This document shows positions 44,358-45,436 of a stretch of 64,000 nucleotides of DNA, piece by piece. The notes beneath the pieces were generated by a model that was not told where the DNA came from, ran no database searches, and saw only the letters and a program-made list of their open reading frames with translations. Both the position numbers and the translations under genes were made by a program. The first letter of the stretch is position 1; every line of letters starts with the position of its first letter. Source of the DNA: Desulfovibrio ferrophilus (lineage in GTDB: Bacteria; Desulfobacterota; Desulfovibrionia; Desulfovibrionales; Desulfovibrionaceae); NCBI RefSeq assembly GCF_003966735.1, contig NZ_AP017378.1, positions 729,501 to 793,500 of the forward strand, written 5' to 3'.

Positions 44358-44705
44358 TCAGCCGCAGCCGCAGCCGCCGCCATCGCTGGAACCGCAACCG
44401 CCGGATCCACAACCGGAACCGCAGCCTCCGCCGCCAAGCTCCATCTCCGACTCTACAATGAATCCTGTGTAAGTCAGGTCCACCTTCACGGGCTTGGCTT
44501 CGTCGAGCAGGTCCTTGTTGATGACGAATTGGATGTCGTCGCCCAGTTCCAGGCTCACATCATTGTCACGCTTCTCGTCCAGCGCCAGGGAAAGTCGTGG
44601 TCCTGAGCATCCGCCCGGGGCAAGATATACACGCACTGGAGCGTTATCGTGGTCTTCGAAATACTTAACCAATTCGCCTTTGGCGGCGTCTGAAACTTGA
44701 ATCAT
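44358..44705 (-). CDS. IscA/HesB-like protein, cysteine form
   Basis: 115 residues of the HesB/IscA (A-type Fe-S carrier) family. Cys33 lies in APGGCSGPRLSLALDE, the expected place for the first cluster-ligand cysteine. The C-terminal tail is Gly- and Cys-rich (GGGGCGSGCGSGGCG), replacing the usual CGC end. It would bind or carry Fe-S clusters, though the tail is unusual. The gene next door at 44868 is its paralogue with an in-frame TGA at the same codon 33. A GGAGG ribosome site precedes the ATG. Confidence 0.88.
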   Translation of the reverse strand: MIQVSDAAKGELVKYFEDHDNAPVRVYLAPGGCSGPRLSLALDEKRDNDVSLELGDDIQFVINKDLLDEAKPVKVDLTYTGFIVESEMELGGGGCGSGCGSGGCGSSDGGGCGCG

Positions 44706-44811
44706 GAATGCCTCCTTATGTTTGTCTCAGGCATCAGTGTAAATCTCTCATTGATGTTGTCAATGGCCTGCATCAGGAAAAGCTTTTTAGTCGGGTATTT
44801 TGTGCGGGTAT

Positions 44812-44842
44812 AAAAAAACCGGCGCCTCCGAAGAGACGCCGG
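44812..44842 (-). terminator. Terminator after the selenoprotein gene
   Basis: CCGGCG with inner CTC pairs with GAG and CGCCGG (44819-44828 with 44833-44842, one mismatch) around a four-base loop, with seven T downstream on the minus strand. Confidence 0.85.
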
Positions 44843-44867
44843 CGATTCGACAGAGTCGAAAGGCGTG

Positions 44868-45218
44868 CTAGCTGCAGCAGCTGCCAGCGGAGCCGCAGCC
44901 ACCACTGGAGTCGGTGCCACAACTACCGGATCCACAACCGCCGCCGCCAAGCTGGAGGTTGGAGTCCACGGAGAAACCAGTGTAGGTAATGTCTACTTTC
45001 ACGGGCTTCGCAGCTTCAAGAAGTTCTTTTTCCATGACGAACTTGATGTCACCATCAAATTCGAAGACTTCGTCGGTATCCTTAGGCTCATCCAGAGCCA
45101 ATGACAGTCGTGGGCCTGCTCAGCCGCCCGGCGCGAGATACACCCGGATGGGGGAGAGCTCTTTGTCCTTGAAGTAGGACAAAAGCTCCTCGCGAGCTTT
45201 ATCGGTCACTTCCAGCAT
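44868..45218 (-). CDS. HesB-like selenoprotein (Sec at codon 33)
   Basis: 116 codons from an ATG with GGAGGAAATC upstream to a TAG/TGA-type stop at 44868, read through an in-frame TGA at 45120-45122. Translated with U at that codon the protein is MLEVTDKAREELLSYFKD... then APGGUAGPRLSLALDE, aligning residue for residue with its paralogue, where codon 33 is Cys. The Gly/Cys-rich tail (GGGGCGSGSCG) is also shared. HesB-like selenoproteins are a known prokaryotic family. A hairpin with a GG-containing loop lies about 20 bases after the TGA. Read without Sec, the gene would look broken, with a later false start at 45101. Role: probably Fe-S or metal carriage, with Sec as ligand or redox residue. 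Confidence 0.85.
45083..45122 (-). promoter_or_regulatory. SECIS-like element with the Sec TGA codon
   Basis: On the minus strand, after TGA (45122-45120) comes a hairpin TTGGCTC-TGGAT-GAGCC-TAA with five perfect inner pairs and a loop holding GG, about 20 bases past the TGA. Position and loop fit bacterial SECIS elements read by SelB. The fit is by inspection only. Confidence 0.6.
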
Positions 45219-45436
45219 GATTTCCTCCGATGGAATTGTGATGTGAATGAGTCAAGTAATGCTGGGTTTCGTTGCTGTCAATAGTATTGATTATTATTTA
45301 GTTTAGCATCGAGAATATCTATATCATACATTGGTGACATATATTGCAATGCGTGCCGGGATTACGTATCGTTGGATCATTCGATATTTCGCGCCCCTGA
45401 GGGGGCTGTTCGCCATAACCATGGAGAGACGCGAAG

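Follow-up and report, generated by a model that had tools for sequence, protein, structure and literature searches.

HesB was named among the known selenoproteins in 2005 (PMC1242214), and one year later a paper recognized a family of HesB-like selenoproteins, carried by D. vulgaris and D. desulfuricans among others (PMC1794560). The same paper describes a conserved G in the loop of the SECIS element, as well as changes from selenocysteine (Sec) to Cys that left remnant SECIS structures behind; a HesB-like protein from Desulfitobacterium hafniense is one such case (PMC1794560). The gene DVU_1382 of Desulfovibrio vulgaris was listed in 2007 as encoding a HesB family protein with an in-frame TGA (PMC1914089). 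The gene described below resembles it in both respects, a likeness taken from the published listing. More recently, a 2026 review gave the motif of the HesB-like family as UxGP and stated that, for most selenoproteins, the function is still unclear (PMC13188914). The same is said of the HesB-like selenoprotein of Methanococcus maripaludis, found through mutagenesis and 75Se labelling; an unpublished observation quoted in the same source has it that a disruption mutant still fixed nitrogen (PMC11097638).

We analyzed a stretch of 64,000 nucleotides of Desulfovibrio ferrophilus (the window, hereafter) that carries a gene of this already described kind, so that the locus confirms a known family. 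Of further interest are the pairs of Sec and Cys copies across the family and the lack of canonical carriers. In the translation of the window DNA, the protein starts with MLEVTDKAREELLSYFKDKELSPIRVYLAPGG, followed by U at the single in-frame UGA and by AGPRLSLALDE. The original prediction, made from the letters of the window, had the positions of the gene right and its strand left out (the gene lies on the minus strand). The in-frame TGA at codon 33, past which the frame continues to the stop codon, and the good ribosome-binding site before the start were both found where it had placed them (Table 1). It had also stated that automatic annotation would miss the gene or call it broken. This is true of a naive list of open reading frames, which takes UGA as a stop and yields just a fragment of 77 residues with a TTG start (44868-45101), but not of the NCBI family model NF038090, which covers the gene.

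The adjacent paralogue, or twin, aligns without gaps with the Sec protein through codon 33, where it reads APGG-C-SGPRLSLALDE; the Cys at this codon and the matching flanks are thus as predicted. The two copies are 62% identical, and the genome search gave no third match except one at E 1.09. A promoter-like site precedes each of them, a terminator-like hairpin lies in between, and this arrangement is repeated in a sister species (L012) with identical promoter hexamers. Given these predicted sites, which are consensus hits whose number per region is near that of shuffled sequences, the two genes are likely transcribed separately. A gathering-level Rfam scan of the window returned two tRNAs and nothing else.

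Table 1. Coordinates, in the window, of the HesB-like selenoprotein gene, its Cys twin and the neighboring elements.
Feature	Coordinates	Strand	Remarks
HesB/IscA-like selenoprotein gene	44868..45218	-	116 aa, Sec at codon 33, TAG stop
In-frame UGA, Sec codon 33	45120..45122	-	Position shared by 105/199 homologous genes kept
SECIS-like stem-loop GGCUC-UGGAU-GAGCC	45085..45099	-	nt 24-38 counting from the U of UGA
GGAGG ribosome-binding site, Sec gene	45224..45228	-	5 bases 5' of ATG; read by eye
Promoter-like site upstream of Sec gene, TAGATA-17-AATAAT	45293..45321	-	Consensus match only; hexamers and spacing unchanged in L012
Gly/Cys/Ser-rich tail, residues 91-116 of Sec protein	44871..44948	-	Alignment, dN/dS, pLDDT
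Terminator-like hairpin between Sec gene and twin	44818..44843	-	Similar hairpin in L012
Promoter-like site of twin, TTGACA-16-TACACT	44736..44763	-	Consensus match only; hexamers and spacing identical in L012
Cys twin	44358..44705	-	115 aa; Cys33 at 44609-44607; NF038090 114.3 bits

The genome encodes the machinery for Sec. The tRNA-Sec scores 80.9 bits for a cut-off of 47, and selB (396.6), selA (617.9), and selD (340.5) are all above their cut-offs. In a set of 14 control genomes, the cut-off was reached by tRNA-Sec in 5, by selB and selD in 2 each, and by selA in 1. A search for selA, selB, selC, and selD had been proposed as a check, with the absence of the machinery as one refuting condition; all four are present, each over its curated cut-off, and the condition does not apply. 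The selD gene of the same genome, which lies outside the window (G000:C1:455441-456355; L078), carries an in-frame TGA of its own and is very likely a selenoprotein gene too.

At the scale of the order, selA has a match in 249 of 297 genomes, and 48 lack one (28 of these were deduced from their absence among the selA matches). A HesB-like match was found for 19 of the 48, among the matches listed. Twelve of them have no UGA copy among the matches listed (G125, G139, G158, G169, G208, G209, G229, G232, G255, G258, G259, and G272), and seven have a UGA copy without a selA match (G047, G069, G222, G266, G275, G281, and G287). The latter are 77-93% complete, and missing pieces of the assemblies may account for them. 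Among the selA-less genomes that are at least 95% complete, none of 7 has a UGA copy in the matches listed. This distribution fits with the use of Sec. In the genus g26, the first seven genomes (G208, G209, G215, G229, G255, G258, and G272) show no UGA among the matches listed; the selA match is absent from six of them and weak in G215, and another genome of the genus, G186, has both a UGA copy and selA. These genomes are 82-96% complete, and g26 may be a lineage that is giving up Sec.

A total of 297 open frames matched, from which we left out those scoring below 40, those without the motif, and those with identical DNA. This resulted in 199 distinct homologous genes, 105 with UGA and 94 with Cys at the site of codon 33. 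The 80 regions fetched were hand-picked from the best matches listed and are not a random sample. Another refuting condition, homologues that always end at this codon, does not apply either, as they do not end there.

In bacteria, the SECIS is a stem-loop located at a short distance after the UGA. We made the 48-base stretches distinct, which left 99 Sec and 92 Cys sequences, and found the five-pair stem (nt 24-28 with 34-38 after the UGA) intact in 96 of the former vs 4 of the latter, with the loop UGGAY in 98 of the 99 Sec sequences. The stem pairs in 492 of 495 cells in the Sec genes, vs 74 to 230 when it is slid by 1-3 bases. Three extra pairs below the stem (127/297 cells) do no better than slid ones and are not conserved. 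The codons of the stem are near-frozen in the Sec genes (GCT in 96, CTG in 98, and GAG in 96 of 99), while the same Ala is written GCC, GCG, GCT, and GCA in the Cys genes. Seven sequences show paired double changes at 24-38 and two at 26-36, with the outlier L191 left out. Taken alone, the UGA region of the window gene folds into this stem-loop, though the local RNA fold is no stabler than shuffles (z -0.09), and the case for a SECIS therefore rests on comparison.

Three Sec sequences fall short of five pairs. In L049 and L172, the difference is confined to the outermost pair. The third, L191 (G098:C32), has one codon fewer between the UGA and the stem-loop (GGUSPRL), so that the two are 3 nt closer together than in the rest of the Sec sequences kept; either the shorter spacing is tolerated or this copy is decaying. 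Among the Cys genes with pairing stems, the one of G234 (L047) retains the exact stem-loop of the Sec type, likely as a fossil, and the other three have a different, GC-rich sequence.

The codons on either side of the UGA are under purifying selection. The dN/dS of the core 3' of the UGA ranges from 0.07 (L012) to 0.23 (L161) among five relatives, and that of the tail is 0.17, 0.31, and 0.29 vs three relatives, the synonymous sites being saturated in two more. The TGA is also found in the sister species, at 89% identity. Judging from these sequence comparisons, UGA codon 33 is almost certainly a site of Sec insertion.

The Sec protein matches NF038090 (IscA_HesB_Se) with 132.2 bits, and the twin also exceeds the cut-off of 85; both matches span all 101 positions of this model. 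Matches above this cut-off are present in 262 of the 297 genomes of the order. We found nothing that sets the window gene apart from this family, although the match stops at residue 97 and leaves out most of the tail. The match to TIGR01911 (HesB_rel_seleno) is partial, at 37.2 bits for a cut-off of 66.35 that none of the 297 genomes exceeds, even if the UAGP of the window protein fits the UxGP motif. The Sec protein is also below the cut-offs of PF01521 (23.6 vs 26.3) and TIGR00049 (30.5 vs 58.8), and the twin is likewise below those of TIGR01911, TIGR00049, and PF01521, with no match at all to the latter.

A-type carriers have three ligand cysteines, one in a GGCSG motif and the others in a CGC at the end of the protein. 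When we compared a profile of 38 relatives with chains of solved structure, it matched AQ_1857, HI1723, IscA (yfhF), and SufA, and the Sec column aligned with the GGCSG-type cysteine of IscA-type chains in all three alignments examined. The predicted model of the Sec protein has a mean pLDDT of 75.6, with values below 50 from residue 92 onward except at one residue. Its best matches in Foldseek are IscA 1x0g, AQ_1857, HI1723, SufA 2d2a, and IscA 1r94/1s98, with E-values of 1e-5 to 2e-4 for 1x0g, 2d2a, and 1s98. According to this model, the Sec protein has the IscA fold, i.e., that of an A-type carrier.

The protein is like IscA, SufA, and ErpA in its fold and in the position of Sec, which sits on their GGCSG cysteine. 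It differs from them in having Sec in place of Cys at this first ligand position; where the alignments show a CGC end for these carriers, it has a longer tail rich in Gly, Cys, and Ser. The tail has five cysteines, and there is no fixed CGC across the family. It had been singled out as unusual, but at least three tail cysteines are present in 102 of the 105 Sec proteins and in 92 of the 94 Cys ones. The central claim of the original prediction, a HesB-like selenoprotein with Sec at a conserved Cys, is upheld by the Sec machinery, the UGA-linked stem-loop, the selection past the UGA, NF038090, and the alignment of the Sec column. We expect the protein to work as an A-type carrier, even though it does not reach the cut-offs of the curated A-type families.

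The canonical carriers themselves seem to be missing. A search of the genome with PF01521 gave no match, whereas 10 of the 14 controls have one (9 over the cut-off); this search missed the Sec gene and its twin too, and is therefore not very sensitive. The cut-off of TIGR00049 is reached in none of 59 genomes of the bacterial family, 48 of which have a completeness of 90% or more and a contamination of 5% or less, vs 8 of the 14 controls. Matches below this cut-off occur in 49 of the 59 genomes, many at the loci of these same genes and some elsewhere (e.g., in G230 and G147). The genome also has two matches to NifU/IscU-type scaffolds. A phylogenomic study of 2009 had already reported that A-type carriers are missing from many Delta-Proteobacteria (PMC2682760). 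The literature that we searched gave no report of the absence of a canonical carrier over the cut-off across the 59 genomes of this family.

The Cys twin had also been regarded as unusual, but in 68 fetched records both types of copy occur within 0.9 kb in the same stretch. The two copies share a strand in every such record and are separated by 21-894 bases, with the Sec gene first in 47 records and the Cys gene first in 21. These records, which were picked and are not a random draw, span 20 coded genera plus named ones. Our literature search, limited to titles and the openings of abstracts and hence not a proof, did not turn up any description of Sec/Cys tandems in the IscA_HesB_Se family.

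A quick tree of 142 rows has 26 changes of label between Sec and Cys, 8 of them forced by starred branches. We then built a careful tree of 62 rows and 91 columns, the rows being chosen by genus after the quick tree had been seen, which is a weakness, and one long row (L114_C_1831) being dropped. In this tree the Sec and Cys copies interleave, with 22 label changes, at least 15 of which are forced by starred branches. A single Sec/Cys split was found in 0 of 200 bootstrap trees, and the AU test rejects one Sec clade (p 2e-88). The clustering of labels in the 62-row tree is no stronger than in shuffles (409/500 as low), as is to be expected when one pair per genus is taken. The Sec and Cys copies are not sisters in g10, g17, g19, and g31, among others. 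At four-fold sites, copies of the same locus are alike in 1242 of 2460 cells vs 2078 of 5231 for random Sec x Cys pairs, a level of agreement that shows they are not freshly homogenised. We take as a lead, given the short alignment and the chosen sample, that the Sec and Cys copies pair mostly genus by genus and do not form two old branches; the literature searched gave no report of such a pattern.

Putting these elements together, we propose with a probability of roughly 0.7 that the gene encodes a genuine selenoprotein, an A-type carrier of iron or Fe-S clusters that uses a selenolate, with the Cys twin as a backup. The proposal draws on comparison for the reading frame, the machinery, the conservation of the stem-loop, the selection, and the similarity of fold; the separate promoter-like and terminator-like sites suggest independent expression, and metal binding, cluster transfer, and the backup role are inferred. 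The SelB/tRNA-Sec system would insert Sec at UGA codon 33, directed by the downstream stem-loop, to give an A-type-carrier-like protein with the IscA fold. The selenolate at position 33 would stand where IscA and SufA have their first conserved Cys, with the remaining ligands provided by the flexible Gly/Cys tail. The protein would then bind iron or an Fe-S cluster and hand it to client proteins. The twin would do the same job with Cys, presumably as a selenium-independent backup expressed from its own promoter.

Other readings have to be weighed against this one. The intact Cys twin next to the gene might mean that the UGA is a plain stop and that the twin has taken over from a pseudogene, which we regard as extremely improbable: the genome has the full Sec machinery, the UGA occupies the same place in more than half of the homologous genes kept, the stem-loop is kept with UGA and not with Cys, and there is purifying selection past the UGA. 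On the strength of this selection and of the same TGA in L012, we rejected both the pseudogene and a sequencing error. A selenoprotein that is not a cluster carrier is less easily dismissed, even if we deem it rather unlikely. In such a protein, Sec and the Cys-rich tail would bind another metal, a metalloid, or selenium, or would do redox chemistry, and the near-constant presence of several cysteines in the tail, unlike the short end of IscA, speaks for it. On the other hand, the protein has the fold of IscA with Sec placed on a ligand cysteine, and none of the 59 family genomes has another A-type carrier over the cut-off.

The history of the pairs can be read in two ways that are both compatible with these functional readings: either duplication was repeated, with a change from Sec to Cys, or gene conversion kept neighbors alike. 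We consider it doubtful, though worth keeping in view, that conversion between two old neighbors and not repeated duplication explains the genus-wise pairing. The close spacing of the copies on one strand, in all 68 pairs found in the same stretch, is a setting that favors conversion. Yet the four-fold sites indicate no recent homogenisation, the order of the copies varies, and the two copies of G093 (g12) are sisters in the tree while lying ~68 kb apart.

The comparison suggests that, in organisms rich in Fe-S proteins, a selenoprotein may take over a task that falls to IscA, ErpA, or SufA in other organisms, and that the spare Cys copies arose repeatedly beside the Sec gene. One could go further and speculate, tentatively, that the Sec protein and its Cys neighbor are the sole A-type Fe-S carriers in this family of sulfate reducers, and that the Cys copy was remade lineage by lineage beside the Sec gene as a recurrent selenium-sparing switch for core Fe-S delivery. 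The dozens of natural Sec/Cys pairs provide material to ask what selenium adds. Some genomes have more than two copies. For example, the locus L131 (G129:C1:3066800-3074500) has three copies with the motif (one Sec, two Cys) and an odd fourth one, and the genome G187 has nine matches to NF038090.
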